A stretch of DNA of 64,000 nt from Bacteroidia bacterium (GTDB lineage: Bacteria > Bacteroidota > Bacteroidia > Chitinophagales > UBA2359), in the NCBI GenBank assembly GCA_030427245.1, contig JAUHXA010000010.1, positions 62,001 through 126,000 of the forward strand, written 5' to 3'. The translations under genes were made by a program, and so were the position numbers. This document shows, in pieces, positions 3,720 to 59,210 of the stretch; position 1 is the first letter of the stretch, and every line of letters starts with the position of its first letter. Under the pieces are notes generated by a model. The model was not told the DNA's origin, did no database searches, and was given only the letters and a program-made list of their open reading frames with translations.

Positions 3720-3828
3720 CTTATAAAAATTTAAAAAAAAAAAAAAATATTAATGATTTTCTGAGTAGCAAAGAATTCTAAAATACCTTGAAGCTATCCA
3801 AAAAAATACTGTAATTTCACAATTAAAA

Positions 3829-3836
3829 CAAAGATA
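3829..3836 (-). promoter_or_regulatory. Bacteroidota-type -7 box (TATCTTTG)
   Basis: Exact match to TAnnTTTG on the minus strand upstream of the RRM gene, giving a leader of roughly 100 nt. No clear TTTG -33 element was seen at the right spacing. Confidence 0.4.
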
Positions 3837-3885
3837 CAACTAATACTTGATGTTATACCCTTTTCTAAAAAATAAATTCAAAATT

Positions 3886-11545: not shown

Positions 11546-12063
11546 TGTTTGATACTCACTATGAGTTTAGATACATTAACTATCGAAAGGCTAAGCCAAC
11601 TGATTATTTTATTAAAGAACATAAACTAATATTTTCTTCTAAAAGTAATCAAAAATATATTGTAAATGTAGAAGAATACAAACTCCATACATATGTGATA
11701 AAATTTCACTTGAAGTCACATTCTGATAGTGATAATAAGTATAAGTTGCTTACAAATCAATATGATGCAGTTAAAATTCTTTCTACTTGTGTTAATATAA
11801 TGTTATACTTTTATAAAAAAGACAATTTGGCTTCTTTCGGATTTATTGGGGCTAATTTACTGGATGAAGATGAAGCCAATACTAAAAGGTTTCAGGTTTA
11901 TAAAAGGATAATGGAAAACTTATTCTCTCCATTGTATTTTCATCATTATAATATACCCGAAAAGAGCATTTATTTGTTATTAAATAAAGCAAATTTAGAA
12001 TTAAATACTAACTTGCTTGATGATATAGAACAAATGTTCAAAAATTATTATACATTTAAATAA
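11545..12063 (+). CDS. Unknown soluble protein (cassette gene 2)
   Basis: 172 residues, no signal peptide or membrane helix. An N-terminal beta-rich part (YIVNVEEYKLHTYVIKFHL) precedes an alpha/beta part with LASFGFIGANLLDEDEAN and TKRFQVYKRIMENLFSPLYF. From memory, uncharacterised Bacteroidota proteins carry a similar FGFIGAN...NTKRFxVYKRIM signature; I cannot name a function. It starts inside the TAATG overlap with gene 1, so a stoichiometric pair is likely. Very AT-rich. No catalytic motif is visible. The gene ends 18 bp before the right terminator hairpin. Confidence 0.7.
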   Translation: MFDTHYEFRYINYRKAKPTDYFIKEHKLIFSSKSNQKYIVNVEEYKLHTYVIKFHLKSHSDSDNKYKLLTNQYDAVKILSTCVNIMLYFYKKDNLASFGFIGANLLDEDEANTKRFQVYKRIMENLFSPLYFHHYNIPEKSIYLLLNKANLELNTNLLDDIEQMFKNYYTFK

Positions 12064-25989: not shown

Positions 25990-28900
25990 ATGAACAAAAC
26001 CATTACTCTGTGTTTTTGCTTGTTACTGTTGTTGTTGTCCTTCAATACCAATGCTCTTTCGGCAAATTTCTATACTCCTTTTGAGGAAGAAGCAGCCATT
26101 CCCTTATTGTTGCAAGTACCTCCTGCCAACGATGTCTGTTCTGCTGCCATATCCTTAGACCCACTAACAGCCCAAGAATATGGCATCTACTTTAATACTG
26201 GTGCCACTTCAGATGCGTCTGAATCGCTACCCGATTGTTTCGCAGACGGCGCATTGAACAACACCGTTTGGTTCACCTTCACAGGAGACGGAAATGCCTA
26301 CAATATGACCGTCACCGATTGCAACAGCAGTTCTTTTGTCCTAAGCGATTCCCAAATGGCAATTTTTGAAGGAACGGACTGCAATAGCCTCACCGAATTG
26401 GATTGCAGCGAAGATTATAATGCCACAGACTTTTATTCCCAAATCACTTTACCTACTACTGACGGTACAAGTTATTATTTGATGGTAGATGGCTATGAAG
26501 GTGATACAGGAGATTTTTGTATTGATGCAAGTATGATATTTACAGGTTCAAATTGCGAAACAGCTGAAGTAATAAATACTAATCCTTTTTTCTTTGATTC
26601 TGGGATAACCTCTACTTGTGGTTCAGGAGATGATTATAACTCAACGGATGTAAACTGTAATTCGGCCAATTTTTATATGAATGGAGATGATTTTGTTTAT
26701 AGTTTTACTCTTGATACAGATGGTTGTTATAGTTTTGATTTAGAAAATACAGATGATTGGATGGGTATGTTTATTTTAAATGGTTGTCCAGACGCTTCTA
26801 ATACTAACTGTATTGCAAATACCAATAATGCAGGAAATCCAGATTCAATTGTACTAGATTTGGCAGAAGGTACTTATTATATTGTTATTTCTCGTAATCC
26901 AGATGGTGTAAGCCCTCCAAGTGGTCAATGTGGAAATTATCAGTTATTGATACAAGAATGTAGCATATTCACCTGCGCCCCCGAATCAGACGGCACCATC
27001 TTCGTCACCACCACCGAAGACAACGGCAACAACGATTTCCCCACAGTCGGTTCACTACGAGCCGCCATCAAATGCGCCAACGAAACCACAGGCGCAAACA
27101 ACATACATTTCAACCTCACAGGAACAGCTCCTTTCATTTTCAATTTACCGCAAGTTTTACCTCAACTCACAGACAATGCTACCATCATAGACGCAACTAC
27201 CCAAACCGATTTTGAATTGGGTGATATCATTATTGACGGAACAGATGCCATCATTGGCGGTGAAGACGGATTCGATATACAGCAAGCCGATGGCATAGAA
27301 TTTTATGGGTTGGTCATACAGAATTTTCCTGATGATGCCATACGTATGTCGGGCGCAAGCAATGTCATTATCCATAACAACATCCTTATTAACAATGGAT
27401 TAAACAGTACTCATGGCAATGGAATCTACATAGAGGGAGGCTCAGAATTCGTGACGATTCAAAACAACTATATTGGCTACGACCCCATCAATGACATTGC
27501 AGCAGGGAATAGCAGAGAAGGCATTCAAATCCAAAATTCTGGCAATGTCACGATTGGCAGCTCAATAGATTATTCCTTTGGAAATGTCATTGCTGGAAAT
27601 GGAGAAGAGGGAATTTGGATTCACAACTCTTCTATTGGAATTGAAATAATGCACAATTATATTGGCACCAATGCCGAGTCAGACAATGGTTTGGGCAACG
27701 GCAATTCAGGCATTCTCATTCAAAACTCCAACTTCATTCCCCTTTATTCCAATATCATTGCCTACAATCAAGGTTATGGTCTTGAAGTAAACTCCACTTC
27801 CAATGAGGTCACTTTTAGCTCAGGTAGTATTTTCTGTAATACCGATGGTGGAATTTTTATGGAAACAGGTGGTTCACTCAACGAATCCCCTCCCAGCATT
27901 ACCACCGCAAGCCCCTCCATTATTGAAGGAACGGCACAACCCAACGAGAACATTGAAATTTACATACACAACCACGAAACCTGCACAGAAAACACGACTT
28001 GCCAAGGGAAGACATCCTTTGCAAATACAACAGCAGATGCTTCAACAGGTGAATGGTCAATTGATTTAAGCTCAGCAAACTTGACAGAAGGAATACAAAT
28101 CAGCGCATTAGCCACCAACTCGTCTAATAATACTTCCGAATTTTCAACCTGTACTACCATCACTACCTCCACCTGCTCACCCGACGACAACGGCAATATC
28201 TATGTCACCACCCTCTCCGACAATGGCGACAACGATAATCCCCCAGTCGGTTCACTCAGAGCAGCCATCATTTGTGCCAACGAAACCTCAGGGCCAAACC
28301 ACATTTACCTCGACACCAATTCCATTCCCACAGATGGACCTTACTTAATTCAGCCATTGACCGAACTGCCTTCATTGACCGATGCCCAAACCTATATCGA
28401 CTTTGCTTATACAGACAACACCTCCACTGGTTATGTCGAATTAGATGGCAGTTTATTGGATTCGTCCGTAGATACACAAGCAAAAGGCTTGACCCTTCAA
28501 GGCGATAGTAGTGAAATATGTGGATTCTATATCCACAGTTTCCCCGATGATGGAGTATTCATTGATGGCTGCGACGGCTGCAAAATTGGTTCACCAGGCA
28601 AGGGCAATATCATTGCAGGAAATGGAACAGTGAATAGCCCTTTTGGAGAACAAATCTATGTTTTCAATGCCGATAACATCAACATTATTGACAACTTGAT
28701 AGGAACAAATTTGATAGGCGATGATTTTTCGGATTATCCATCAGGAGAAGCGAGCGAAGGCGTATTCGTCGAAAATTCCTCCAATGTGGTCATTGGAGGC
28801 GATGATGCTGATTGGGGAAATACTATTTCGGGAAATACTGGCAATGGCGTTTGGTTGGAAGGCTCTGAAAATGTGGTTTTGAAAAACAACTTTATCGGCA

Positions 28901-31900
28901 CGAATGCTGAGGGAACGGCTGCAATTGGCAATACCGTTCATGGCATCCGAATCAGCGATACCTTCAATCCTACTATTGGAGGAGAAGGCATGGGCAATGT
29001 GATTTCGGGCAACGAACAAAGTGGCCTTTACTTAGAAGGTGCTGCCAATACTTCGGTAATTATCAACAACAAAATAGGTACAGACCTAGATGGGACGTTT
29101 GCTATTGCCAATGGTGACAGAGGAATTTATATGGAAAATGTGCATGACATATTTATCGAAGGGGACAACCTCATTTCTGGTAATTCTCATGATGGCATTT
29201 GGGTAGGTGACGCTTCCTTCAATGTGCAAGTAACGGGAAATAAAGTAGGAACAGATGCTACAGGCACAGCGTCCATTTTGAATGGCTGCAATGGAATTTC
29301 GATTTCAGCTGCAAATGAAGTATTGATAGGAGATTTAGACGAGAGGAATTTGATTTCGGGCAACAATCAAACAGGGATTTGGATTGGTGATGCATCTGAC
29401 AATATCACCGTCTTTTTTAATTATATAGGCACAGATATTTCTGGAACATTTGCTTTGCCAAACGGTGAGGAAGGCATTGAAATAGATAGTTCAAATAATG
29501 TGGCAATTGACACAAATATAATTTCTGGCAATAATTCTGATGGTATTCTTATTCACAATAATTCTGAATTCCCACTTATTTTTGGCAATACAATTGGCGC
29601 AAATGCGGGTGGTTCAGAGGCCTTGTCGAATAATTCGCATGGAGTAAATATTACCCAAAGTTATCGGGTGGAAATGACTAAAAACTTGATTTCGGGCAAC
29701 GGATGGGATGGGATTCACATTGGAAATGGAGCAAATCTAACCTTTGTCTATGAAAATAAAATTGGTACCGACATTACAGGAACATTTATCATTGGCAATG
29801 GATTGGAAGATAGCGATTCGGAAGGAGATGGAATAGCTATAAAAGGAGCATATCAGATAGCGATTGCAGATAACTTAATTTCTGGAAATCGAGATGGAAT
29901 AGACTTGTCGTTTATGGCGACTGAAGTAGAGTTAGTGGACAATAAAATTGGTATCGACATTACAGAGGAAAATACTCTGGGAAATACTGAGTCGGGTATC
30001 AAAATTGACAGTTCTGCGATTACATTGGTACGTGGTAACATCATTGGAGGAAATGGTGAAACGGGAATCTTAGTAGAAAATGCTTCAAATAATACGACCA
30101 TCAAAAGCAATTTCATTGGAGTAAGTGAAGACGGTACAATGGATTTGGCGAATGGAACTTTGGGGATAGAAATTTGGAATAGTATCAACACAAAAATTAC
30201 CAACAATCAAAACCAAACAGATGGAAATACGATTGCCAATCATACCATAGGAATCGGCGTTTATGGAAGTTCCGATTCGACAACTATTCACTTGAATAGT
30301 ATTTACTGTAATACCCATACAGGAATCGACATTGGAACTGACAATCCTACTCCCAATTTACCATTTATCACAAAAGCAACTCCCATTCAAATAACAGGAA
30401 CAGCCGATACTAATACCACCATAGAACTCTTCCTCCACAACGACACAGCCTGCAATGGCGTGCCTTGTCAGGGAAAAACATTCATCGGCACAACCACCAC
30501 AGACAACGAAGGAAATTGGACAATAAACAGCAGCAACTTTATTCAACCCTTAACAGTAGGACAAAACATCACTGCAACAGCCACCTTCAATGGCAATACT
30601 TCTGAATTTACCGAATGTCTGCAAGTTTGTCCAACGATTGAGCCGATTATCACTGGTGAAACCGCTTTTTGTGAATGGAATTTTACCACCTTAACCGTCA
30701 ATGATTTTAGCGATTTTGTGGCAGAATATTTTTGGTCGACAGGCGAAAACAGCCAAGCAATTGAAGTGAGCGAAAGCGGCATTTACACCGTTACCGTTTC
30801 GGATGGCGGCATCTGTTCGGGAACGACAAGCATTGAAGTGATGCAAAACACCAATCCTATAGTAACCATTTTTTCACCCAATGGCACTCAGTTTTGTTTG
30901 GGCAGTTCGCTCACCTTATTTGTAGACGTTTTGAGTACTTCCAACATTGTTGCGTATGAGTGGTCGACAGGTGAAAGCGGGCAGAATATTGCAGTGAGCG
31001 AAGGTGGTATTTTCACCCTTACGGTCACAGATAACAACAATTGCAGCGCATCAACCTCGATTTTTATTGAAGAATACGAATCGCCTACACTTCTCATTGA
31101 TGGAGACTTAGAATTTTGTAGTGGTGAAAGTACCTTGCTATCTACAAATGAAACATATATTTCTTACTTGTGGTCAAATGGTTTGCAAACTCCTTCTATT
31201 GAAGTAACAGCACAAGGTTTTTACAGCCTTATTGTAACGGACGAAAATGGGTGCAGTGCTGAAAAAGACGTTTTTGTGGTGGAAAACAACTTGCCAAGTG
31301 TGCTTATCGAAGGCGAAAACATGCTTTGCGACCCCAGTATATTGTTGAACGCTTTTACCTCACAGGGCAGTGGCGAATATTTCTACAAATGGTCAACAGG
31401 CGATACGGAAAAAGAAATAATTGTGACCGAAACAGGCACTTATTCCGTTACAGTAAACGACTCTAAGGGCTGTTCTTCCATGGATGAACACCTTGTAGAA
31501 GCGTGTATAGAAGACTGCGATGTAATCCCCTATTTTGTACTTCAAGACACTATTTGCACTTCCGTTTTTCTTACATTCAGTGAGCTCCTCACCGATAGCA
31601 CTACTACAGGAGGAATTTGGGAAATTACCTATCCAGATGGCACAATCGTTCAGCCCACAGATGATGTTTTGACATTTCCCCAAATTGGTATATACACTCT
31701 TGTCTATTTTGTATCCTCCTCTATCTGCAATGACAGTCATACCGAAATCATTTACGCTGGTTTTCCAGACGAACCTTTTTGGTCTTTAGAGGGAGGCAAC
31801 AATGATATTTGTGAAACCAATATACCAATTGCAGTATTCCCTGACAATGAAGGAGGTTACTGGTGTTGTGAAGGTTTTGAAAACTGCAATGCCACCGATG

Positions 31901-34900
31901 AAAGCTGCTTTACAATTATTGACGACCAAATGTATTTTGCCCCAACTAGCAATTCCAATGCCATTGAATCCTATGAATTATCCTATGTGACCACCTTTGA
32001 AAATTGCAGCAGCCACAGCACCAAAACGGTGAATATATACGCCCAACCTTCTGCCCCCGAAGTAAGCACCTCTACTACTACTTTTTGCTTAGGTGAAATC
32101 ACAGATGCTTTCATAAACATAACAGCCCCATCACAATTCCCCAACCAACTTTTCACCTTCAATATCTATGACGAAAGCGGAAACTTACTCATTGAAGGGG
32201 TAAAATTCAATGAGGATGTTGTAGATGTCACAGGCTTGTTGACTTCAATTGGCACGCACACTTTTTGGGTTAAGACTATAAATGGAGCTTGTGAAAGTGA
32301 GGCGGTGGATGTGAGTTTTTTGGTGGAAAGTTGTTCGAGTGAATTTACTGCAATAGACGACAACTACACCACCTGCACCAATACTCCGATCACTTTCACT
32401 CCTTTAGAAAACGATTTGGGAGAATGTTTAGAAATTATAGGACTCATGGTGAGTGGTGAAAACATTACCTTAGAGCAAATCGGTAATGAAATTACTTATA
32501 CACCTGCAACAGATTTTTTAGGAACAATTGACTTTGAATACATTCTTACAGACTGTTTAGGACAAATAGATACCGCTTTGGTGACGATTGAAGTACTTGA
32601 AACAACTCTTATCGAAGCGGTGAATGACACCGTTTATATTTGGGTTTTAGCGAATCCATTGATAGACAATACATCCTATGTAGTTTCCTTCAATATATTG
32701 GAAAACGACAAAGGGGATGGTATTAGATTGATAGACATTGACTATGATGATACATTTTTAGGAGAAAGTATGACTTTTTCAGAAAACGGAACCGTCGTTT
32801 TTCATCCAACAGAAGGAGAAGCTGGAATGAGTTTGATCAATTATACAATAGAAGGAAATGGATGTCAAAATTCCACAGTCACTTCTACGGGAACGATTCA
32901 CCTACACATACATCCTCATCTTGAGTTTTTAGATGAAGCCAACAAAGCCAATCAGATGGTCGAAACAATTTTAGGGATGTGTGTACCCTACGAAAATGTC
33001 ACCCTCACAGGTACGTCTATGTCTTATTCACAAGTAACAGATAGTCACCTATCTGATGCGGAATCGCATGGTTTGGCGGACATGAACAACTTACCCTTTA
33101 CAGATGGAATCATCCTCTCAACAGGAAACGCTTTAGATGGAATGTTAAGCCCAAATACTACAGGAAGTTTGGGGACAAACAATGGTTTGGATGGAGATGC
33201 GGATTTGATGACTGATGAAACAGAAACCTTTGATGCGACTTCCTTAGAATTTGATTTTACAGCAATTTCGGAGTCGATTTCTTTCCGTTATTGGTTTGGT
33301 TCTGAAGAATATCCCGAATGGATAGAGAGCCAGTTCAAAGACAGAATGGCGATTTTTATCAGCGGAGGGCAGTTTACTGACCCACTCAATATTGCCACCT
33401 TAGCCGATGGTACAGCAGTTGGAGTAGAGACGGTCAATCAAAACACAAACAGTGATTTTTTCCAATGGAACGAATACGGTGCATTGCCCCAATACGATGG
33501 TTTTACCACTGCACTTGAAGCCATTGCAACAGGCTTGACATTGGGCGAAACCTACCACATCAAAATCGTTATTGCGGATGTGGGTGATGCAGAATACGAT
33601 TCTGGTATCTTCATTGAAGCCAATATGGATTTCAATGATTTAGAATTTGTGGTTAGTGATGATGCGACTATCAATTTAGGAGATACCTTTAAGTTGTCTG
33701 CCGAAGTATTGAACACCACTGCAAATGTTACGTATGAATGGACTCCAACCCAAACCTTAGACAATCCAAATATTGCCAATCCCACTGCAAGTCCTACCGA
33801 AACTACGACTTATAAAGTGTCTGCAACAATAGGCGATTGTTCATGGACAAGTTTTGTTACCATAACGGTAATTGACAACCCTGTTCCCTGTACTTCTGAC
33901 AATGGCATTATCTACGTCACAACAACGGAAGATAATGGAGACGATAACAATCCAATAGTGGGTTCTCTTCGTGCAGCTATTCTATGCGCCAATGCTGACC
34001 CCGATTTGGATTTGATTCACTTCAATATCACCAATCAAGCTGCTCCATACATCATTCAACCCACCCAAACTACGCTCCCTGCTTTGGAGGATGAAGGGAT
34101 AGTGATAGATGCGACTACACAGCTTGATTGGGAAATGGGCAAAGTAGAATTAGATGGTAGTCGCTTAATTGAAGAAGGAGAAATAGGTTTAACAAATATC
34201 CGAGGTTTTCAAATCTATGTCGAACAGTGTGCGATTTACGGTTTTTATCTACACGATTTCACCAATCATGGTATAGTTAGTTATAGCCCATTCACACAAA
34301 TTGGAGCAGCCAACAAAGGCAATGTTTTCAACCGCATTGAGTTTCCGATTACTATGGACGGTGCAGCTTTTAGCAAGATTCAAGGAAATTACATCGGTAC
34401 AAATCCTTTGGGAACAGCATTTACTGGCGAAGGTAGCAATGGAGGAATTGGCATCAATAACAGTGAATTGGTTTGGATTGGAGGCGAAACCGAAGCAGAA
34501 GGAAATGTAATCAGCGGCAATACAAGCATTCTCAGCCTGAATAGTTCACCCAATTCCTTTGTCCAAAACAATCGAATCGGAACAGACATCACAGGTTCTT
34601 TTGTGATTGGAAATCAAGGTCATTTGTTGATAGCAAGTGACAGTGTTTCTATTGTGAACAATCTCATTTCTGGAAACGAAACAAGTACAGCAACCGTTTG
34701 GATTCAAAATGCAACAGGTGGTATCATTGAAGGAAACAAATTTGGAACAGATATCACAGGCAATATGCTTTTTGGCAATTTGGCAAGAGGCATCACCATC
34801 GAAAATTCCTCCAATATTTCTATCGGTAGCCCTTCCTCCGATTTCCGACAAGTTTTTGCAGGAAACGGTACAGCCATTTTGTTGAAAACTTGTGACAACA

Positions 34901-37900
34901 TCACCCTTCAAGGAAATGCCATCGGAACAGACATTGCTGGTATTCAGGATTTTGGGAACGATACACACGGATTGGTTATTGACAACTCTACCAATATTTT
35001 GGTGGGTGGCAGCATGGAAGGTGAAGGCAATTTGATTTCGGCAAATGGCTCCAATGGAGTAGTCATTACAGACAATTCGAGTGAGGTATATATTGAAGGA
35101 AACAAAATCGGGACAGACATTACAGGCAAAGAAAATTTCGGAAACGGGCGAGAAGGAATCTTGATTGACAATGCCCAAAACATCTATATCGGCAGCAGCG
35201 AAGGAGGACGTAATTTGATTTCAGGCAACTTAGAGGGCATCCGAATCGCCAATAAAAGCCAAAATATATTCATGGTCAACAACAAAGTTGGAACAGATAT
35301 AGATGGTGAATTTGCGATTCCCAACCAAGAAGACGGAATAGACATAGACACGACGACCTTCAATTTGTTTGTGGGAGATGCAGAAACGGAAATAGGCAAT
35401 CTAATCAGTGGAAATGGACAAGATGGCATTGACTTGCATGGTGCAATAGATGTCTATATAGGCTTCAATATCATCGGTTTAACCCAATCCCAAAACGAAA
35501 TTTTACCAAACGAAGAATCAGGTATTGACTTAGAACTTAGCGAAAACATCACCATCGAACAAAATACATTGGCGGGGAATACAGCACATGGGCTTTTGGT
35601 ACAAGGCGGTGCAACCTCTTTGAAGTGCAGCAACAATTTTATTGGCACTAACTCCCTGCAAGAAACAGGATTGGGCAACCAAAAAGAAGGTATTTTGGTC
35701 TTATACACCGCTCCAAATACGGCAAATGAAAACAACGAAATCACCAACAATACCATTGCCTACAATGCTTTTTCCGCTATTCAAATCAACTTCGCCCAAC
35801 ATTTTCTAATAAGTGAAAACAGCATCTTCTGCAATGAAGGAGGAGGTATTTTGTTGCGAGATGGAGCGAACAACAATCACTCCTCCCCCATTATCACCAA
35901 TGTTGCAATCAACCAAATTGAAGGAACGGCAATGGCATCCGATGTGATAGAAGTTTTTGCTGAAGATGTGAGTTGTGCAGATTGTCAAGGTAAAATATAC
36001 TTGGGAACAACCATAGCAAATGACTTGGGTGATTGGGAATTAAACGCACCTTTCGACAGTAATTTGGTGCTGACCAATGGCATGAACATCACCGCCACTG
36101 CAATTACCAATGAACACCACACTTCCGAATTTGCAGACTGTAAAGCAGTTGTAAATGTTCCCTGTGAAGGACTATCTGCGGGTGTTTTGTCCTTCATAGA
36201 GCCCTATGTTTGCTTTGGAAATACAATAGGAGGTGAAATACCTATTGAAGCTTCTGATTTCACATTGAGAGAAGGAGACGTTTTGGGCTATGTATTGCAG
36301 GATGGAAGCGGCAATGTATTGGCTTACCGAACAGATAATGCCAATTTTGGTTTTGCAGATATTGAAGGACCTGGTGGAGCGTACAATACAGAATATTTTG
36401 TGATGGCAATTGCAGGGTTGGGCAATGGAAGTGGTGAAGTAGATTTGACGGGAGAATGTATTGACCGTAGTAATTCATTTGCAGTGGTCTTTTTAGAAGA
36501 AATAATCCTCAATACCAATGTCTTATGCCAAGACAATGAACAATTCCAAATTGAGGTGAGTTTGTCGGGAGGTTTACCCGATTATATTGACGATGCAACC
36601 TACCAACTCACCGAATATGAAGGCGATATTTTTACTGGTCAAACCGTTATCGTTGGACCTTTCGATAGCCAAGAAATTATCGAATTGGAGGCGACTGATG
36701 GCAATGGATGCTTCTCCTCCGTAGAAATTCAGAACTACTCTTTAGCCATTTTTGTAGGCGTGTTAGACATCACCAATGACACTATCATCATCAGCGAAGG
36801 CGAATCCGTTCAGTTGGTGGCACAAGTATTGGGCAGCAATGTGGTGAACTACAATTGGACACCAACCGAAGACCTGAGTTTCCCACAAATTCCAAGCGTC
36901 ACCGCTACTCCCGATACAAGCAGAACCTATACCGTAGAAGTGTTGATAAACAACAATTGTAGCTTGACAGCAAACATCACGATTTTGGTATTGCCGACTG
37001 CAAACGACTGCGTAGATGCCATTCTGCCTTGTGACAACGAGCCGATTCAGTACAACAGCGGAGGAGAAGGCATTGAAGAGATTGCAGGAAAACCCGAACA
37101 AGGCTGTTTGGCAAATGGAGGCGAGCATTATTCAACTTGGGTCAGGCTTCAAATTGACAATTCTACTCCCGATAACGAAGCATTGACTTTCACCATTTCT
37201 CCCAATGATGGACAAAAAGATTACGATTTTGTGTTGTACAAATCAGCAGATTGCAGTAGTTTGGGTGCGCCTATTCGCTGCTCTTTTGCAGATTCTGACC
37301 AAACGGGCTTGAACCTCGAAGATACCGACACCGAAGACCAAGACAATGGTTTTGCGAGTTATGTAGAAGTCAATGGCGGGGAAGTGTATTATCTGATGAT
37401 AGACAATTTTAGCGGTAATTTTCAAGGCTTTACCCTCGAATGGACCAACCCAAATGTGGCGTTCAATTGCGAACCGACTCCTGAATGTTTGGCAGAAGGA
37501 GGTGAATTGTCATTGAACAAACAAAACTACTGCGACGAATCCAATATCGTGGCTACCTTGATTGGAGAAAACACCGATTTTCTAACCACCTATTTGTTCT
37601 TGACCGAAGACAGCATCATTGTTTCCAATCCCGAAATTGGGGTTTACTGTTTGGTAGCGCTCAATTATCCACCTGATGTAGTTGTGGACGATTACACCAC
37701 TATTGAAGAAATCGAAGAAGCCGTTGCAGCAGGGGTTTGCATGGACTTGAGCAACATTGTGTGTTTTGAAGTCTTAGAAGTTCCTCCACCACCGACTTTT
37801 GATTCCAAACATTGCGACCACGAAATTTTGCATGGAGATGTTATTGCCTTGGCAGATGCCGATATTCGTTGGTATGCCGCAGATACGCTTTTCACCATCG

Positions 37901-40389
37901 GAAACAATGTGCATCTCGAAACAGCGGGTATTTATCACGTCACTCAAACGCTGAACGATTGTGAAAGTGAGGTTTTGGAGATTGAAGTGACCGAAGCGGA
38001 TTTGGTATGTTTGGGAGATTGCCCCGATAATTTGGTGCAAAATTTCAGCTTTGAAGAATACGACAACTGCCCTGAATTTGCAGGAGACATCAGAGAAGCC
38101 GACTTCTGGCGTTCACCCATTGGCACAGCCGAAAGAGCCGATTACTTCAATGACTGCAATCCGACAACCAACAATTACGGTACGCCTCAAAACATAGTTG
38201 GAACGCAAACTGCTTTTGAAGGCGTTTCTTATGCTGGTTTGAAGGCTTACAACCAAGCCAACAACGATTTGATTAGTCGAGAGTACATTCAAACACAGTT
38301 AAATTCTACTTTGATTGAAGGGCAAAGCTATTGTGTTTCTATGCAAGTGAGCCTTGCCGAAAACAGCCAATTTGCGATAGACAATTTGGGAATCTATTTT
38401 TCTGAAAATCAAATAATGGGCAGTGACATTGAAGATATTTTAGAGCCTCAAATCGAACACCAAGGTTTTTTGGAAGACACAGAAAATTGGATGGAAGTCA
38501 AAGGCACATTCACCGCTACATCTGGGCTGCAATATTTAGCAATCGGCAATTTCGCATTGAACAGCGGTGTGAAAGAGGTCAATTCAACCGGCAATGGAGA
38601 GGCGTATTACTACATTGACTTCATAGATATACGTCCGACCAATGAGATAGAAAGTTTGCTGGCCTTCGATGAGAATGGAGAACAACTCAATACCGAAAGC
38701 AATACCATTGTGATTTGCCCTGACGAAACCATTCGCTTGGAAGCGACTACAACAACGACCAATTTTTCTTGTGATTTGGGATGGATTGAAGCCCTAACAG
38801 ACACCATTCACCAAATGAGCTACACCATTCAACCTACACAAGATACGACTGTTTACCACTTTTGGGTCAGCAATGGCTTGTGTGAAGTGGCAGATAGTTT
38901 GGTGGTAATTTTGGGAGATGTGGGAAGTGATGGAGATTGTGCATTGTCGGTGTGTCCACAGATACAAGAACTGACCAGTTTGCTGCAAAACTTGGAATTG
39001 AGTATTCCTTATCAAATGAATGAAATAGAAGTAGATTTGACGCAAGAAGTCGGCGGTCAGCTGCTGCAATTGGCACAAACAATTGAAGGATTTGACGAAG
39101 GTTTGTTGGCTGGTTTTGAAGTGAATATGGTGGCAGGAAGTTTGCAGACCGAGATGAATCCAGCATATCTTGAATTCCATCCCAATCGCATTGTTTACAA
39201 CAATTCTGACCCGTCCAACTATGCCTATATCGGACAAGACCAACTCACCTACACGCTTACTTTTCCTTCGTGTGGTACGGTGACTCGAAGTTTGACGATA
39301 GACTTTTTATGCCCTGATTTTGAAGTAAATGAACCTAGTAGCGATTGCCAAACTGCTTTTTTCCGATTGACCAACCCAACCATGTTTGTTTTTCCAAACA
39401 ACACCATCAACCTCATTGAAGCCAGTAATTTGGGATGGTCGTATCAATACAAAATTGAAGGAGAAAACAGTGATTGGATGGCTGCAAGTGAGGAAACTTT
39501 CTTGGAAACAAATGACAATTACACTGTTTTGTTGCGCATCGTAAAAGCCAATTCGAATCCAATTGAACCGATTTTTCAAGGCAGCTATGCCGAAACCTGC
39601 GGAGTTTCTATCGCTACACCTTCATTGGAAGGAATGACGGTGGGCATTGTAGAACGGTGTTTGGAAGATGGAAGCGTAGAATTGACAATCGCAACAGAGG
39701 GTTTGGACGAACCTGAAAACTTTGTTTTTGAGTGGTCGACAGGAGAAACGACACAGCAAATCGTTGTCAGTCCGCCGTTTGACGAAAGTTATTGGGTCGA
39801 AGCCCTGAGAATAAACGATGGATGTAGAGGAATAGATTCGGTTTTCCATATCGGACCACCAGATGTCTTCATCGAATACACCGATAAGAGTCGTTGTGTG
39901 GCAACGATTGGTATTCGCAATTCTATTCCGCAAAGCATCACCTGCTATAACGAACAGATTCCAGAAGAAGATTGCTGGTGGAATCAAGCAGAACAGGCCT
40001 ACAAATGTGAAATCAACCTCTGGGAAACTACTTCCGAAATGGCTTATGTGGTCGTGAACGACTTCAAAGGTTGTACCGACAGTGTAGCATTGTTTACCTG
40101 TCTACCTGATATCCATGTCGTCAAACCCAATCCTTCTAAGCGCCTGTTTACCATAGAGCTAACAGGTATTCCGATTCAAACGCCCATTCGATACTATGTC
40201 TATGATATAAGTGGTCGAATGGTTATGAGTTCGGACAACCTTCAAGGTTCTGGTAAACAACCTCTGGAGAATTGGCGGACGGTGAATATTGATTTGGATG
40301 AGCGTTTTGTGAGCGGAATGTATTTTGTGCAGTTTTCTGTGGAGGATTGGGCAGAGCCTTTGAGGACGAAGTTGGTGAAGGGGGAGTAA
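25990..40389 (+). CDS. Giant secreted multi-domain protein (4799 residues) with beta-helix blocks and T9SS sorting domain
   Basis: Signal peptide (ITLCFCLLLLLLSFNTNALS), then two N-terminal sugar- or peptide-binding-like sandwiches (to ~325). Three CSLREAI-like blocks (VTTTEDNGNN...VGSLRAAIKCAN at about 327, 727 and 2632) each lead into a right-handed parallel beta-helix made of NxIGTDxxGT and LISGNxxxGI coils (about 330-640, 730-1530, 2640-3390). Between them are Ig-like WSTGE...YSVTVTDxxGC repeats (about 1550-1840) and a choice-of-anchor L-like domain (about 2320-2550). Later come a PPC-like sandwich (about 3670-3820), a carbohydrate-binding-like NFSFEEYDNCP domain (about 4010-4220) and a T9SS type A tail (VVKPNPSKRLFTIEL...). 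Probably a cell-surface or released adhesin or polysaccharide-binding protein. Domain edges are approximate. Confidence 0.9.
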   Translation: MNKTITLCFCLLLLLLSFNTNALSANFYTPFEEEAAIPLLLQVPPANDVCSAAISLDPLTAQEYGIYFNTGATSDASESLPDCFADGALNNTVWFTFTGDGNAYNMTVTDCNSSSFVLSDSQMAIFEGTDCNSLTELDCSEDYNATDFYSQITLPTTDGTSYYLMVDGYEGDTGDFCIDASMIFTGSNCETAEVINTNPFFFDSGITSTCGSGDDYNSTDVNCNSANFYMNGDDFVYSFTLDTDGCYSFDLENTDDWMGMFILNGCPDASNTNCIANTNNAGNPDSIVLDLAEGTYYIVISRNPDGVSPPSGQCGNYQLLIQECSIFTCAPESDGTIFVTTTEDNGNNDFPTVGSLRAAIKCANETTGANNIHFNLTGTAPFIFNLPQVLPQLTDNATIIDATTQTDFELGDIIIDGTDAIIGGEDGFDIQQADGIEFYGLVIQNFPDDAIRMSGASNVIIHNNILINNGLNSTHGNGIYIEGGSEFVTIQNNYIGYDPINDIAAGNSREGIQIQNSGNVTIGSSIDYSFGNVIAGNGEEGIWIHNSSIGIEIMHNYIGTNAESDNGLGNGNSGILIQNSNFIPLYSNIIAYNQGYGLEVNSTSNEVTFSSGSIFCNTDGGIFMETGGSLNESPPSITTASPSIIEGTAQPNENIEIYIHNHETCTENTTCQGKTSFANTTADASTGEWSIDLSSANLTEGIQISALATNSSNNTSEFSTCTTITTSTCSPDDNGNIYVTTLSDNGDNDNPPVGSLRAAIICANETSGPNHIYLDTNSIPTDGPYLIQPLTELPSLTDAQTYIDFAYTDNTSTGYVELDGSLLDSSVDTQAKGLTLQGDSSEICGFYIHSFPDDGVFIDGCDGCKIGSPGKGNIIAGNGTVNSPFGEQIYVFNADNINIIDNLIGTNLIGDDFSDYPSGEASEGVFVENSSNVVIGGDDADWGNTISGNTGNGVWLEGSENVVLKNNFIGTNAEGTAAIGNTVHGIRISDTFNPTIGGEGMGNVISGNEQSGLYLEGAANTSVIINNKIGTDLDGTFAIANGDRGIYMENVHDIFIEGDNLISGNSHDGIWVGDASFNVQVTGNKVGTDATGTASILNGCNGISISAANEVLIGDLDERNLISGNNQTGIWIGDASDNITVFFNYIGTDISGTFALPNGEEGIEIDSSNNVAIDTNIISGNNSDGILIHNNSEFPLIFGNTIGANAGGSEALSNNSHGVNITQSYRVEMTKNLISGNGWDGIHIGNGANLTFVYENKIGTDITGTFIIGNGLEDSDSEGDGIAIKGAYQIAIADNLISGNRDGIDLSFMATEVELVDNKIGIDITEENTLGNTESGIKIDSSAITLVRGNIIGGNGETGILVENASNNTTIKSNFIGVSEDGTMDLANGTLGIEIWNSINTKITNNQNQTDGNTIANHTIGIGVYGSSDSTTIHLNSIYCNTHTGIDIGTDNPTPNLPFITKATPIQITGTADTNTTIELFLHNDTACNGVPCQGKTFIGTTTTDNEGNWTINSSNFIQPLTVGQNITATATFNGNTSEFTECLQVCPTIEPIITGETAFCEWNFTTLTVNDFSDFVAEYFWSTGENSQAIEVSESGIYTVTVSDGGICSGTTSIEVMQNTNPIVTIFSPNGTQFCLGSSLTLFVDVLSTSNIVAYEWSTGESGQNIAVSEGGIFTLTVTDNNNCSASTSIFIEEYESPTLLIDGDLEFCSGESTLLSTNETYISYLWSNGLQTPSIEVTAQGFYSLIVTDENGCSAEKDVFVVENNLPSVLIEGENMLCDPSILLNAFTSQGSGEYFYKWSTGDTEKEIIVTETGTYSVTVNDSKGCSSMDEHLVEACIEDCDVIPYFVLQDTICTSVFLTFSELLTDSTTTGGIWEITYPDGTIVQPTDDVLTFPQIGIYTLVYFVSSSICNDSHTEIIYAGFPDEPFWSLEGGNNDICETNIPIAVFPDNEGGYWCCEGFENCNATDESCFTIIDDQMYFAPTSNSNAIESYELSYVTTFENCSSHSTKTVNIYAQPSAPEVSTSTTTFCLGEITDAFINITAPSQFPNQLFTFNIYDESGNLLIEGVKFNEDVVDVTGLLTSIGTHTFWVKTINGACESEAVDVSFLVESCSSEFTAIDDNYTTCTNTPITFTPLENDLGECLEIIGLMVSGENITLEQIGNEITYTPATDFLGTIDFEYILTDCLGQIDTALVTIEVLETTLIEAVNDTVYIWVLANPLIDNTSYVVSFNILENDKGDGIRLIDIDYDDTFLGESMTFSENGTVVFHPTEGEAGMSLINYTIEGNGCQNSTVTSTGTIHLHIHPHLEFLDEANKANQMVETILGMCVPYENVTLTGTSMSYSQVTDSHLSDAESHGLADMNNLPFTDGIILSTGNALDGMLSPNTTGSLGTNNGLDGDADLMTDETETFDATSLEFDFTAISESISFRYWFGSEEYPEWIESQFKDRMAIFISGGQFTDPLNIATLADGTAVGVETVNQNTNSDFFQWNEYGALPQYDGFTTALEAIATGLTLGETYHIKIVIADVGDAEYDSGIFIEANMDFNDLEFVVSDDATINLGDTFKLSAEVLNTTANVTYEWTPTQTLDNPNIANPTASPTETTTYKVSATIGDCSWTSFVTITVIDNPVPCTSDNGIIYVTTTEDNGDDNNPIVGSLRAAILCANADPDLDLIHFNITNQAAPYIIQPTQTTLPALEDEGIVIDATTQLDWEMGKVELDGSRLIEEGEIGLTNIRGFQIYVEQCAIYGFYLHDFTNHGIVSYSPFTQIGAANKGNVFNRIEFPITMDGAAFSKIQGNYIGTNPLGTAFTGEGSNGGIGINNSELVWIGGETEAEGNVISGNTSILSLNSSPNSFVQNNRIGTDITGSFVIGNQGHLLIASDSVSIVNNLISGNETSTATVWIQNATGGIIEGNKFGTDITGNMLFGNLARGITIENSSNISIGSPSSDFRQVFAGNGTAILLKTCDNITLQGNAIGTDIAGIQDFGNDTHGLVIDNSTNILVGGSMEGEGNLISANGSNGVVITDNSSEVYIEGNKIGTDITGKENFGNGREGILIDNAQNIYIGSSEGGRNLISGNLEGIRIANKSQNIFMVNNKVGTDIDGEFAIPNQEDGIDIDTTTFNLFVGDAETEIGNLISGNGQDGIDLHGAIDVYIGFNIIGLTQSQNEILPNEESGIDLELSENITIEQNTLAGNTAHGLLVQGGATSLKCSNNFIGTNSLQETGLGNQKEGILVLYTAPNTANENNEITNNTIAYNAFSAIQINFAQHFLISENSIFCNEGGGILLRDGANNNHSSPIITNVAINQIEGTAMASDVIEVFAEDVSCADCQGKIYLGTTIANDLGDWELNAPFDSNLVLTNGMNITATAITNEHHTSEFADCKAVVNVPCEGLSAGVLSFIEPYVCFGNTIGGEIPIEASDFTLREGDVLGYVLQDGSGNVLAYRTDNANFGFADIEGPGGAYNTEYFVMAIAGLGNGSGEVDLTGECIDRSNSFAVVFLEEIILNTNVLCQDNEQFQIEVSLSGGLPDYIDDATYQLTEYEGDIFTGQTVIVGPFDSQEIIELEATDGNGCFSSVEIQNYSLAIFVGVLDITNDTIIISEGESVQLVAQVLGSNVVNYNWTPTEDLSFPQIPSVTATPDTSRTYTVEVLINNNCSLTANITILVLPTANDCVDAILPCDNEPIQYNSGGEGIEEIAGKPEQGCLANGGEHYSTWVRLQIDNSTPDNEALTFTISPNDGQKDYDFVLYKSADCSSLGAPIRCSFADSDQTGLNLEDTDTEDQDNGFASYVEVNGGEVYYLMIDNFSGNFQGFTLEWTNPNVAFNCEPTPECLAEGGELSLNKQNYCDESNIVATLIGENTDFLTTYLFLTEDSIIVSNPEIGVYCLVALNYPPDVVVDDYTTIEEIEEAVAAGVCMDLSNIVCFEVLEVPPPPTFDSKHCDHEILHGDVIALADADIRWYAADTLFTIGNNVHLETAGIYHVTQTLNDCESEVLEIEVTEADLVCLGDCPDNLVQNFSFEEYDNCPEFAGDIREADFWRSPIGTAERADYFNDCNPTTNNYGTPQNIVGTQTAFEGVSYAGLKAYNQANNDLISREYIQTQLNSTLIEGQSYCVSMQVSLAENSQFAIDNLGIYFSENQIMGSDIEDILEPQIEHQGFLEDTENWMEVKGTFTATSGLQYLAIGNFALNSGVKEVNSTGNGEAYYYIDFIDIRPTNEIESLLAFDENGEQLNTESNTIVICPDETIRLEATTTTTNFSCDLGWIEALTDTIHQMSYTIQPTQDTTVYHFWVSNGLCEVADSLVVILGDVGSDGDCALSVCPQIQELTSLLQNLELSIPYQMNEIEVDLTQEVGGQLLQLAQTIEGFDEGLLAGFEVNMVAGSLQTEMNPAYLEFHPNRIVYNNSDPSNYAYIGQDQLTYTLTFPSCGTVTRSLTIDFLCPDFEVNEPSSDCQTAFFRLTNPTMFVFPNNTINLIEASNLGWSYQYKIEGENSDWMAASEETFLETNDNYTVLLRIVKANSNPIEPIFQGSYAETCGVSIATPSLEGMTVGIVERCLEDGSVELTIATEGLDEPENFVFEWSTGETTQQIVVSPPFDESYWVEALRINDGCRGIDSVFHIGPPDVFIEYTDKSRCVATIGIRNSIPQSITCYNEQIPEEDCWWNQAEQAYKCEINLWETTSEMAYVVVNDFKGCTDSVALFTCLPDIHVVKPNPSKRLFTIELTGIPIQTPIRYYVYDISGRMVMSSDNLQGSGKQPLENWRTVNIDLDERFVSGMYFVQFSVEDWAEPLRTKLVKGE

Positions 40390-40418
40390 ATTTTGTTACT
40401 ATTCAACATCTTTTTTGA

Positions 40419-40445
40419 AATTGTCGCATCAGTGATGCGACAATT
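40419..40445. terminator. Hairpin between convergent giant and NACHT genes
   Basis: Perfect 13-bp arms AATTGTCGCATCA / TGATGCGACAATT around one base, preceded by a T-run on the plus strand. It is placed to end transcripts from both sides. Confidence 0.7.
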
Positions 40446-40473
40446 GAAAGGATGATTATAGAGAACTCTTTAT

Positions 40474-43350
40474 TCATGGCTTGGGTTTATCTTCCTCAAT
40501 TATCGTCAAATCCAGTAATTCTTTCTTCAATTCATTTTTTTGAAAATCAGATAATTGATTTGGAGAAACTCTTAGTATTCTTAACTTTTTTAGCGAATAA
40601 AGTGGGGACAAATCTTGAACTTTAATATCACGTATATGTAATTCATCAAGCTCCTTGAGGTTTTTAATAAAATCAAAATTTTGAATCAGAGTATTGGATA
40701 TATCCAAATGCACCAGCTTTATCAATTTACTTATTGGCTGTAAATCTTTAATTCTAAGGTTACCTAGAGATAAACCAATTAGCTTTTCAAGTTTAGATAA
40801 GCTACTTATTTCAGTAATATTTGTCGAAGCAATATTCAAAATTTCTAATTTCTTCAAATGACTTAGGCATTCTATGCTATTTATTTTTGTATCATTTAAA
40901 TATAATTTTTTCAGTGCTTTTAGCTCTCTTAGAAGTTGTATATCTTCAATTGGAGTCACTTGTATAGCAAGCATTTTTAGCTTTTTTAATGCAGAAATAT
41001 TAGGGATTATAGTAATAAAATCGCTATTGATTAATAATTCTTCTAAGGACAGAATTTCTTCTATTTTAGTAAAATCTTTTACTCCTGTATTATAAACCCA
41101 TAATTTCCTTAGGTTTTTTATCCTATCTAAAATTTTCAAGTTTTTAATAAGCCTATTTCCTCCTAGCCCTATATCTCCTCCTAAAACTAATGTGTTTTTC
41201 AAATCATATTTGATAAATTCATTATTAAATGTACAGTCAACTAGTTTACAGTTTTCAAAACCAATCGTATTCATAAAAGAAGTGCTACTGAAACCCACTT
41301 CATAAAAATCACATCCATAAAACTGTATGTCTCTTGGAATTTTTCTTCTGTGATGAGAAAGAATCTTTATTACTCGAACTGCATTTGTTTCTATCCATTT
41401 ATTATTTTTCTTTCGATTTTTAGAAGTTTGTACTAATTTTAATAAGAATTTTTGATTCGGATTTCCTTCTTTTATAAAATCTAATATTTCATTTCTGTAT
41501 TTTCTCTTACCAAATTCAGCAATTTTTTCTGTATTGATTTCATGTATAAGCACTTGTGATATAAGATAATCTTGAAACGATTTGTGAGAAAAACTAAAAC
41601 ACTTTTCTCCGCTTGGAACCAACAAAGACAATTTCAGAAATTCATTTAATATGGCTTTATAAGCTGATTCAGACTTTGGCGTTTCTATTTTTTTGATAAA
41701 TTTTCTTATCTGCTTAGAATCCTTCTTAATTTTTAAATTAAAACTTAAACTTTCATCATTTTGATAGGTCCATAAAGCAATTTCTTTGAGAATTTTTAAT
41801 TGTAGCTCACTGTTAATAATGGTATTATGATTCTTCTGACTTCGTTTAATCTCTTCCTTGATAACATATTCATAAATCTCTGAAGTAGTTATTTTAGTGA
41901 TAGATTTTCTTTGCTTTAATAAAGAGGGGAGATATTTAACAATAAAATACAATAAAACAGGGCGTTTAGCTAAATCATTTAAGTCATATTTTTCATGAAT
42001 ATTTCTTTGATATTCATCAGCTTTTAGTGGAACAGTTTCATTTAAATACTCCTGTGTTTGCTCCTTCGTTAAATATTGGGTATAAACTATTTGAGAATTT
42101 GATTCAAATGTATTTTCTATTTCCTTCATTGACTGAAAATATTCTAATCTTGTAGTTAAAATGATTTTCACATTAGGATAATCCGTAATTATTTTCTTAA
42201 TTTTCTGAAAGTGAGCAGTTTTCTGATTAGCACTACTCTGCTTAGTAATTTCGTCAAACCCATCTAATACAAGTATTAGATTTCCATTTTCTAGTTCTTG
42301 GCTAAACTTAAACCCATTGAATTTATCAATTCCTTCGTTTCTGCAAAAATTTATGATGAAGTGTATTAAATTACCTCCCGTATAATCATACAAAGGAATA
42401 TAAAGAGGAAAACGTACCTTCTCTTTATAATCTTTTATAATATTTACACTTTTCATACCTAAAAATTGAACAGCAAGCTCCCTCATTAAAAATTTAAGAA
42501 ATGTGGTTTTGCCTGTACCATATTCTCCAACAATTACTAATAAATTCCTGTTATTTTCTAACCATGATATCACATATCCATCCATAGAATTTTCAGATTT
42601 AATTCTATATTCTAAATCATTATTAGGATTTCTTGAGAGTGGGGAAATCAACTCTTTTTCTTTTCCGTCAATATGTAGATAATGTTTTATTTTTTTGAGA
42701 GTTCTTTCCCATTCTTTCACTTGAAATAATTGATATTCTTTCAGCTGAAAACTATAAGAATTTTGCTTTTGGTCTTCTTGATAGCGATAGTAAAAATCAG
42801 TAATTAGGATATTGGTTTCTAATGTAAAATTATAAATTGTTCTCTCTGATGGATTATTACTTTTTATCCATAAATTATAGAATATGTCATAAAATGCCTG
42901 TATTTCTTTTTGATATTTTTCTATGGAAGGACTTTCATAATGTAAGTTCACTAATGAAGTCGGTGTATCTACAAAATTATGCTTACAAAATGCAGTTTTA
43001 ATATTTTTAGCTCTTTCAGCATGAGTTATTTTAGAACTTCCCCAATGTTTATTAAATAACTCAATAACTTCGGGCAAACTCATTAATTCAACCCAACCTT
43101 TTTCATCAATATTTTTTTCACAACCATAATTAATTAAGGCATGTATATATATACTCTCAAATGAGTTTTCTAATTTTAATATATCTAGTTCTTGAAATAT
43201 TTTTGCAATTCTTCTATCCTTCTGTAAATTCTTTTTAGTGAATTTAAAAATTGTATTGACGGCTGATATTAAAAATTTTGCTATTTGGGCAGTTTCTAAA
43301 GGTGTCATAATATCATTATTTTTGGATAGTATTTGTTCTTCGTTTACCAT
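40474..43350 (-). CDS. NACHT ATPase with leucine-rich repeats (bacterial NLR-like)
   Basis: About 958 residues. An N-terminal ~230-residue helical part has no recognised fold. The NACHT core has Walker A VIVGEYGTGKTTFL (about 273-286), Walker B LILVLDGFDEI (about 358-368) and the NACHT sensor KIILTTRLEYF. Helical domains follow. After a short cysteine-containing beta stretch come about nine short leucine-rich repeats (LKKLEILNIASTNITEISSL type) to the end. This is the STAND/NLR plan; bacterial NACHT proteins of this kind are known to act in phage defence, so that role is inferred. The ATG at 43350 is preferred; an in-frame ATG at 43401 would add 17 residues. The DNA is clearly more AT-rich than its neighbours, suggesting transfer. 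Single gene with no partner. Confidence 0.85.
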   Translation of the reverse strand: MVNEEQILSKNNDIMTPLETAQIAKFLISAVNTIFKFTKKNLQKDRRIAKIFQELDILKLENSFESIYIHALINYGCEKNIDEKGWVELMSLPEVIELFNKHWGSSKITHAERAKNIKTAFCKHNFVDTPTSLVNLHYESPSIEKYQKEIQAFYDIFYNLWIKSNNPSERTIYNFTLETNILITDFYYRYQEDQKQNSYSFQLKEYQLFQVKEWERTLKKIKHYLHIDGKEKELISPLSRNPNNDLEYRIKSENSMDGYVISWLENNRNLLVIVGEYGTGKTTFLKFLMRELAVQFLGMKSVNIIKDYKEKVRFPLYIPLYDYTGGNLIHFIINFCRNEGIDKFNGFKFSQELENGNLILVLDGFDEITKQSSANQKTAHFQKIKKIITDYPNVKIILTTRLEYFQSMKEIENTFESNSQIVYTQYLTKEQTQEYLNETVPLKADEYQRNIHEKYDLNDLAKRPVLLYFIVKYLPSLLKQRKSITKITTSEIYEYVIKEEIKRSQKNHNTIINSELQLKILKEIALWTYQNDESLSFNLKIKKDSKQIRKFIKKIETPKSESAYKAILNEFLKLSLLVPSGEKCFSFSHKSFQDYLISQVLIHEINTEKIAEFGKRKYRNEILDFIKEGNPNQKFLLKLVQTSKNRKKNNKWIETNAVRVIKILSHHRRKIPRDIQFYGCDFYEVGFSSTSFMNTIGFENCKLVDCTFNNEFIKYDLKNTLVLGGDIGLGGNRLIKNLKILDRIKNLRKLWVYNTGVKDFTKIEEILSLEELLINSDFITIIPNISALKKLKMLAIQVTPIEDIQLLRELKALKKLYLNDTKINSIECLSHLKKLEILNIASTNITEISSLSKLEKLIGLSLGNLRIKDLQPISKLIKLVHLDISNTLIQNFDFIKNLKELDELHIRDIKVQDLSPLYSLKKLRILRVSPNQLSDFQKNELKKELLDLTIIEEDKPKP

Positions 43351-43419
43351 AATTAGGAATATTTTCTCTGTAAAATTCTTGAATCCACACACTAACAACA
43401 ATTACCCCACTAAATCAAT

Positions 43420-43503
43420 TCACTTCCTTTTCTTCAACCTATCAGGATTCGCCGCCAAAACCACCACTCCAAGCACATCCGTAGCATCAAAATCTTTCGG
43501 CAT
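43420..43503 (-). pseudogene. Possible gene-end remnant or 27-residue ORF
   Basis: Between the TPR gene and the NACHT gene an ATG-started frame of 27 codons encodes MPKDFDATDVLGVVVLAANP and a basic tail DRLKKRK. It reads like a real protein end and is less AT-rich than the NACHT gene. It may be the residue of a gene displaced by the NACHT insertion. Weak evidence. Confidence 0.2.
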
Positions 43504-43524
43504 TGCATCGAGCTATAAACCAGA

Positions 43525-57463: not shown

Positions 57464-58501
57464 TTGAACACGCAAACACATAAACACAATTTTACCCAAT
57501 TCCTCGATTTAGCCTCTGCAAAATTAGGAGGAAAAGTTCTCTATGCTACCGATGATTTTTTTGCAGAAAAAGAAAATCTCCTCAAAGAAGGCGATGCCGT
57601 TTTCATAGCAGGAAAATACACTGACAGAGGTAAATGGATGGACGGTTGGGAATCCAGACGCAAGCGGACAGCGGGACACGATTGGTGCATTGTGGAGTTG
57701 GCAGAAAGTGGGCGCATCAAAGGTTTTGACATTGACACCAGCCATTTTCTCGGCAATCACCCACCCTTTGCAGCCATTGAAGCGGTGAATTTGAAGGATG
57801 GGCCAGAAGTCGATAATTGGGAAACAACCCAACTTGTATGGACTGAAATTCTTCCAAAATCACCCCTCGACCCAGGCAGTCACAACTTCTATGAATCCAA
57901 CTCCAATGAGATTTTCACCCACCTCAAACTCCACATCTATCCCGATGGAGGCGTGGCAAGATTGCGGGTGTATGGGGAGGTCTATAAAGATTGGTCAAGG
58001 CACCCTCAGAATGAAGTCATTGATTTAGCGGCTGCAAAAGTGGGCGGCAAAGCCATTGCCTGCAACGATATGTTTTTCAGCGCAATGGACAATCTAATCA
58101 TGCCCAATCGTGGAGCAAATATGGGCGATGGATGGGAAACGAAACGCAATAGAACACCCAATAACCGAGATTGGGTGATTTTGCGTTTGGCACATACAGG
58201 CTGCATCGAAAAAGTCCTCGTTGATACCTGTCACTTCAAAGGCAACTATCCCGATTCTTGTTCTATTGAAGCTTGTTTTGCAGAAAATGACCAAGCCGTC
58301 ATTGAAGGAAAGGTGGAATGGCAGACCTTATTGCCGCAGCAAAAACTAAGTGCTGACTTTGAGCATTTTTACGAAAAAGAAGTGGTTTCTATTCCCCGTA
58401 TTTCTCACGTGCGCTTGAATATTTTTCCAGATGGTGGGGTGAGTCGGCTGCGGTTGTTTGGCAAGATTCTACAAAATTACCACAATAACCCTACAGCATA
58501 G
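57464..58501 (+). CDS. alc: Allantoicase
   Basis: 345 residues made of two allantoicase (jelly-roll) repeats. First: FLDLASAKLGGKVLYATDDF, IKGFDIDTSHFLGNHPPFAA, HIYPDGGVARLRVYGEV. Second: VIDLAAAKVGGKAIACNDMF, VLVDTCHFKGNYPDSCSIEA, NIFPDGGVSRLRLFGKI. It hydrolyses allantoate to ureidoglycolate and urea. The only near start is TTG at 57464. It follows allB at 103 bp. Its last 25 bp overlap the convergent vapC gene. Confidence 0.93.
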   Translation: MNTQTHKHNFTQFLDLASAKLGGKVLYATDDFFAEKENLLKEGDAVFIAGKYTDRGKWMDGWESRRKRTAGHDWCIVELAESGRIKGFDIDTSHFLGNHPPFAAIEAVNLKDGPEVDNWETTQLVWTEILPKSPLDPGSHNFYESNSNEIFTHLKLHIYPDGGVARLRVYGEVYKDWSRHPQNEVIDLAAAKVGGKAIACNDMFFSAMDNLIMPNRGANMGDGWETKRNRTPNNRDWVILRLAHTGCIEKVLVDTCHFKGNYPDSCSIEACFAENDQAVIEGKVEWQTLLPQQKLSADFEHFYEKEVVSIPRISHVRLNIFPDGGVSRLRLFGKILQNYHNNPTA

Positions 58502-58860
58502 GACGAAAAATAAATATCTTTGGTAACTATTGGAATACCTTCAGTAATGGCTTGAGCTATTATTAGCCTATCAAAAGGGTCTCGATGATAATACGGCAAT
58601 GTCAGCAAAGGCTTCAAATGAGTAAAGTCAAAATCCAAAATAAGGAAATTATGGTTTATTAGAAATGCTTCTAAATCATTGAAATGAATAGAAATATCTA
58701 ATTTATTTAAACTCAACTTAATCACTATTTCCCATATACTTGCCTTACTAACAAAAATTTGATTGCCTTCATTATCAATTGCTGCAATTGCCTTCGAAGA
58801 AAGCTGTGTATCTCCTTCAATATACCATATTAGGGCATGGGTGTCTATCAATAAATCCAT
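58477..58860 (-). CDS. vapC: VapC-type PIN-domain toxin
   Basis: 127 residues. PIN fold with the acidic residues of the active site: Asp in LLIDTHALIWYIEG, Glu in VSKASIWEIVIKLSL, and the Asp residues of YYHRDPFDRLIIAQA, plus PIVTKDIYF. It is predicted to cut RNA, usually tRNA or rRNA. It follows the antitoxin gene with near-overlap (a GTG at 58866 overlaps its stop; ATG at 58860 preferred). Its end overlaps the end of alc. Confidence 0.88.
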   Translation of the reverse strand: MDLLIDTHALIWYIEGDTQLSSKAIAAIDNEGNQIFVSKASIWEIVIKLSLNKLDISIHFNDLEAFLINHNFLILDFDFTHLKPLLTLPYYHRDPFDRLIIAQAITEGIPIVTKDIYFSSYAVGLLW

Positions 58861-58862
58861 AA

Positions 58863-59087
58863 TCACATATACTCTTTGAAATCCTCTAGTGGTTCATCAA
58901 AATCGTCTGAAATATAGGTAAATATACCTTTTCCACATCCAAACTTCCTCTTCTTAGATTTAGGATTTGGTGTAGATTTTGAGAATGTAGAACTATCAAT
59001 AATTACTTGCAGCGCTGCCAACAAATCAACATCCTCAATTTGAGCAATTTTTTGTTGCAGAACAGTTTTTAAAGTCAATGTACTCAT
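58863..59087 (-). CDS. vapB: DUF2281/VapB-like antitoxin
   Basis: 74 residues from the ATG at 59087. The N-terminal part (MSTLTLKTVLQQKIAQIEDV) is helical; the C-terminus (GIFTYISDDFDEPLEDFKEY) is the acidic toxin-binding tail typical of DUF2281 antitoxins. An in-frame start at 59198 would run almost into puuD and adds a non-family leader. Antitoxin genes of this kind repress their own promoter. Pair with the PIN toxin is convincing. Confidence 0.82.
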   Translation of the reverse strand: MSTLTLKTVLQQKIAQIEDVDLLAALQVIIDSSTFSKSTPNPKSKKRKFGCGKGIFTYISDDFDEPLEDFKEYM

Positions 59088-59210
59088 ACCTCTATTTATA
59101 TTTTCTTCTATAGAAAGACAATTCAAAGAACCCAATGGTTCACTTCTTACCATTTTTATAATTATCCTGCTAACTTTGGTAAAAAGTACAACCTTCAAAA
59201 ACCAAATAAT

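Follow-up and report, generated by a model that had tools for sequence, protein, structure and literature searches.

Bacterial NACHT proteins protect against phage through a sensor-NACHT-effector plan, as established by experiment (PMC12169576). Proteins of this kind that also carry LRRs are already termed "bona fide bacterial NLRs" in a passage of Conte et al. 2025 (PMC12169576) that cites Kibby et al. 2023. We analyzed a 64,000-nucleotide stretch of DNA (the window) from a 7.58-Mb genome that is Bacteroidota-type by its relatives and located a gene whose product begins with an all-helical N-terminus and continues with a NACHT ATPase, a winged-helix region and some ten internalin-like LRRs of 22 residues each (Table 1). 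NACHT and LRRs are thus joined in one open reading frame, the combination that marks a bacterial NLR in PMC12169576.

Domain plan, reading frame and base composition

A Pfam scan of the full protein returned NACHT with 41.2 bits (cut-off 26.7) and LRR_4 with 74.8 bits (cut-off 27) and found no DNA-binding domain. The Walker A and Walker B motifs, near-invariant across the family, accompany the above-threshold NACHT match. A weak pentapeptide-like bridge precedes the LRRs, and one relative has a Pentapeptide_4 match at E 1.3e-4. The nearest solved relatives of the LRRs are the CtRoco LRR (5il7) and internalin A. Our full-length AlphaFold model (mean pLDDT 62) contains ten LRR strands at a spacing of ∼22 residues, and its top solved structure in Foldseek is NLRC4 (E 2.2e-14, 883 columns). 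The same domain order runs colinearly through a full-length relative in Bacteroidetes MAG-78 (G122; 29% identity over 945 amino acids), which bears out the complete NLR plan claimed in a preliminary description of this DNA.

The gene is a single intact frame starting at ATG 43350, which lies within a longer open reading frame of 975 amino acids from a TTG (40474–43401, reverse strand). Alignment to relatives makes ATG 43308 an equally good start. The GC content of the gene is 0.27, compared with ∼40% in its neighbors; it stays at 0.25–0.28 per 250-base step throughout 40500–43249, against 0.41–0.46 on the left side and 0.34–0.46 on the right, and GC3 is 0.21 versus 0.39–0.50 in the adjacent genes. 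The AT-richness is real and has sharp boundaries at both gene ends. The gene lies between a convergent gene for a 4,799-amino acid surface protein and a gene for a TPR protein whose family is present in 20 of 20 family-level genomes searched. No defense gene adjoins it in the window. It is therefore a stand-alone gene with a base composition unlike that of both neighbors, as the preliminary description had proposed. We considered whether positions 43400–43524 are a frameshifted end of the TPR gene and rejected this, as TPR homologues stop near the same place.

Table 1. Positions of the gene, its domains and motifs, and the adjoining inverted repeat within the window
Feature	Position	Strand	Basis
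NNH5-NACHT-LRR protein, 958 amino acids	40474..43350	-	Open reading frame; ATG 43350 or, fitting relatives equally, ATG 43308
Hydrophobic, amphipathic first helix, then K/R cluster	43240..43308	-	Hydrophobicity comparison, nine members
NNH5 domain, all helical, effector/signaling position	42850..43287	-	40.4 bits, cut-off 27; residues 8-153 from ATG 43308
NACHT NTPase domain	42031..42543	-	41.3 bits, cut-off 26.7; residues 256-426 from ATG 43308
Walker A, GEYGTGKT	42505..42528	-	Invariant in family alignment
Walker B, LDGFDE	42250..42267	-	DGFDE invariant in family alignment
Winged-helix-region motif, SHKSFQDYL	41563..41589	-	Relatives conserve SHKSFRDYL
Pentapeptide-like bridge ahead of LRRs (weak)	41173..41328	-	Pentapeptide_3, 14.3 bits, below cut-off 27
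About ten 22-residue LRRs, internalin / Roco-LRR type	40495..41106	-	LRR_4; strands in model
Inverted repeat, probable shared terminator of two convergent genes	40418..40446	.	Read from sequence

Several other features were recorded in and near the window. The convergent neighbor (25990–40389, forward strand; GC 0.42) is probably secreted, and its long repeats resemble parallel β-helix segments. An AT-rich island at 11033–12063 (forward strand; GC 0.25), located between dprA-like and fadB-like genes, holds two genes of 170 and 172 amino acids, the second with a DUF6934 match below cut-off only, and is possibly an accessory gene pair. Caspase-domain (Peptidase_C14) genes are found at 344–1420 (forward strand) and 23138–24508 (reverse strand), and a PIN-domain gene with a DUF2281 partner forms a VapBC-like pair at 58477–59198 (reverse strand). 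Another NACHT protein is encoded ∼22 kb left of the window (G000:C39:36880-39681; L151 6881–9682, reverse strand). It has a hydrophobic N-terminus, is probably membrane-anchored and has look-alikes in MAG-78 (L070) and in a Saprospiraceae genome (L102).

The N-terminal NNH5 domain

The N-terminal ∼230 residues had been said to match nothing. This proved wrong: scanned alone, the N-terminus matches PF22736 (NNH5, the NACHT N-terminal Helical domain 5 of Pfam) with 40.1–40.4 bits, against a curated cut-off of 27, and the match lies ahead of the NACHT domain. The HMMER filters miss it when the whole protein is scanned. NNH5 was likewise matched in six of six aligned family N-termini and in a seventh. 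The suggestion that the killing mechanism may be new narrows accordingly to the action of NNH5: the N-terminus is no orphan and belongs to a catalogued family, for which our literature search on NNH domains found no published work and hence no NNH5 function. The N-terminal family is NACHT-associated and the gene sporadic, rather than a non-immune family in a core gene.

The structure prediction proposed for the N-terminus gave an all-helical domain with no visible catalytic motif (pLDDT 63). The model, built from an alignment of six rows, is poor; neither a death-like six-helix fold nor any other solved fold matched it above noise, an absence that does not count at this model quality. A sequence-profile search of the PDB returned DnaA at E 0.01–0.02 only, which we did not accept as homology. 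In seven of nine members, no 18-residue stretch of the N-terminal region is more hydrophobic than the one at its very start (first 18–22 residues), and in an eighth the start comes within one window of this. Together with the K/R cluster that follows, this helix hints weakly at membrane contact; a buried core helix would look alike.

Distribution and genomic setting of the family

MAG-78 encodes a second, contig-cut copy; a Saprospiraceae genome and Cloacimonadota encode further NNH5-NACHT-LRR proteins. The plan thus recurs, as a single gene each time, in Cloacimonadota and in two Bacteroidota genomes besides that of the window. Among 247 further genomes sampled from the order, one other true match was obtained. 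The 394 further genomes sampled from the phylum gave one as well, in which NNH5 is joined to a different NTPase and LRRs are missing, and 3 of 99 Cloacimonadota genomes had matches. The family is therefore sporadic, at ∼3% or less of sampled genomes. Matches in G100 and G027, to a sulfotransferase-like protein and an AAA protein, were dismissed as chance. Neither the N-terminus nor the whole protein found a match in phage records, plasmid records or viral contigs, and the viral matches from the profile search span essentially NACHT alone.

The genome that contains the window also holds a NACHT fragment with stop codons (G000:C18:14940-15239, reverse strand), 54% identical over 68 amino acids to the MAG-78 protein; this decayed second member, a closer relative of the MAG-78 protein, shows gene turnover. 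In a tree with Mrr-nuclease-NACHT proteins as outside group, the window copy groups weakly with the Bacteroidota copies (86/90) on a branch of 1.47, compared with a median end branch of 0.45. The equally low GC of the Cloacimonadota copies (0.26–0.27) had suggested a transfer from that phylum, which the grouping with Bacteroidota does not support.

No partner gene recurs beside family members. The Cloacimonadota copies adjoin mntP, with leuS on the opposite side where the contig extends (one contig, L044, does not show mntP); mntP-leuS is one housekeeping locus in this phylum, not a defense island. The Saprospiraceae relative (L043) has on one side a gene for a TIR domain fused to pentapeptide repeats (positions 3363–4466), near a phage-like amidase gene, and on the other a phage-type integrase gene next to tRNA-Leu. 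On that contig, a query with the 18-base tRNA tail found no attachment-site repeat for the integrase. An empty site for the window gene was not found by synteny: the closest homologues of the TPR gene are set in unrelated neighborhoods, and no relative is close enough.

Functional readings and comparison with known systems

We consider it likely that the window protein is an accessory, cytosolic receptor of the STAND/NLR type that senses an invader and stops the cell through NNH5. This reading rests on a domain plan with intact motifs that distant relatives share colinearly and on a gene that occurs alone, sporadically and with foreign base composition, and further on the decayed second member, the TIR/integrase setting of L043, the Mrr-type nuclease found in the NNH5 slot of related proteins, the NLRC4 match and the phage defense demonstrated for bacterial NACHT proteins of this plan (PMC12169576). 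Against it we count the lack of an adjoining defense gene, the Cloacimonadota housekeeping locus, the poor NNH5 model, the synteny search that yielded no empty site and the result from PADLOC-DB 2.0, which has no specific defense model for the protein (its best match, through the ATPase to mads_8, is weak). In such a receptor, the LRRs would hold the resting protein off until a ligand binds them; a product of a phage or of another invader is the most likely one. The NACHT ATPase would then exchange nucleotide and oligomerize, and the oligomer would cluster the NNH5 helical domains, which as executioners would stop or kill the cell. The architecture is supported by sequence and structure; phage defense and the killing step we infer.

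How NNH5 would act can be narrowed only tentatively. Direct action, perhaps with the first helix at the membrane, is favored over recruitment of a partner. One specific form of it, which we hold to be rather unlikely, is a membrane-acting death domain whose conserved hydrophobic first helix, on NACHT-driven oligomerization, would enter the inner membrane, by analogy with, and convergent to, coiled-coil plant NLRs; if true, the protein would be a single-gene bacterial resistosome. Alternatively, NNH5 could serve as an adaptor and recruit a separate effector, such as a caspase-like peptidase of the same genome, by homotypic or heterotypic contacts like those of death-fold or EAD domains. NNH5 is terminal, purely helical and devoid of a visible catalytic motif, as are many adaptors (PMC8195603), and the window does contain two caspase-domain genes, but both lie ∼16 kb or more from the NNH5-NACHT-LRR gene and no partner gene accompanies the family. 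EAD logic moreover predicts a second protein bearing the same domain (PMC8195603), whereas in seven genomes a profile search (E up to 5) found NNH5 confined to NTPase genes, apart from a weak partial match in G627. This confinement would argue mildly against an EAD-type homotypic adaptor; a diverged partner would escape the profile search. We thus regard the adaptor as possible, yet less probable than direct action.

The receptor reading itself has two weaker competitors. MalT and other STAND proteins act as regulators, and the window protein might correspondingly govern, for example, gene expression or colony behavior, its LRRs sensing a host factor; the one stable chromosomal place of the Cloacimonadota copies would suit such a role. 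We judge this improbable, given that Pfam detects no DNA-binding domain, that the gene is very sporadic, divergent and foreign in composition, that its genome also holds a decayed relative, and that sister NACHT proteins carry a nuclease. Least probable of all, the gene could be a foreign one that is silent or decaying and now serves no function; although it is AT-rich, sporadic and on a long branch, its 958-codon frame is intact at 27% GC and retains every catalytic motif.

Read as an invader-sensing receptor, the window protein joins presumed phage sensors of an already known kind and is no new kind of system: bacterial NLRs with NACHT and LRRs have been described (PMC12169576), and Pfam already lists NNH5 as a family. 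It shares with these bacterial NLRs the N-terminal effector position, the central NACHT and the C-terminal sensor, and LRR-bearing examples are known among them. The bNACHT proteins tested in PMC12169576 differ: some pair an N-terminal DNase with NCH1, others have SNaCT domains and no discernible effector, and none named there has NNH5. Its NNH5-NACHT-LRR relatives (L043, L021, L044, L045, L047 and G679) are 27–31% identical, agree in full-length domain order and are likewise single genes, but differ in LRR number and sequence, and the window copy stands apart on its long branch. The next-nearest proteins, from Nitrospira (L090) and Bacteroidia (L057), have a related NACHT domain, but an Mrr_cat nuclease replaces NNH5 and an FGE-sulfatase or pentapeptide C-terminus replaces the LRRs; the nuclease at this position marks it as the effector slot. 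The NNH5-STAND-TPR protein of G489 shares the N-terminus (79.6 bits), but its NTPase is not called NACHT by Pfam, it has no LRRs and its TPR match is below cut-off only. Animal NLRs such as NLRC4, the top structural match of the full-length model, share the NACHT and LRR layout, whereas the window protein has the bacterial, 22-residue type of LRR and its N-terminus, in a low-confidence model, shows no CARD match. The family is small and encoded by single genes, so that the action of NNH5 is directly testable. Taken together, our analysis adds a fully NLR-shaped member, with helical domain, NACHT and LRRs, to the bacterial set, from a family present in two phyla in which NNH5 stands at the position that a nuclease takes in related proteins.
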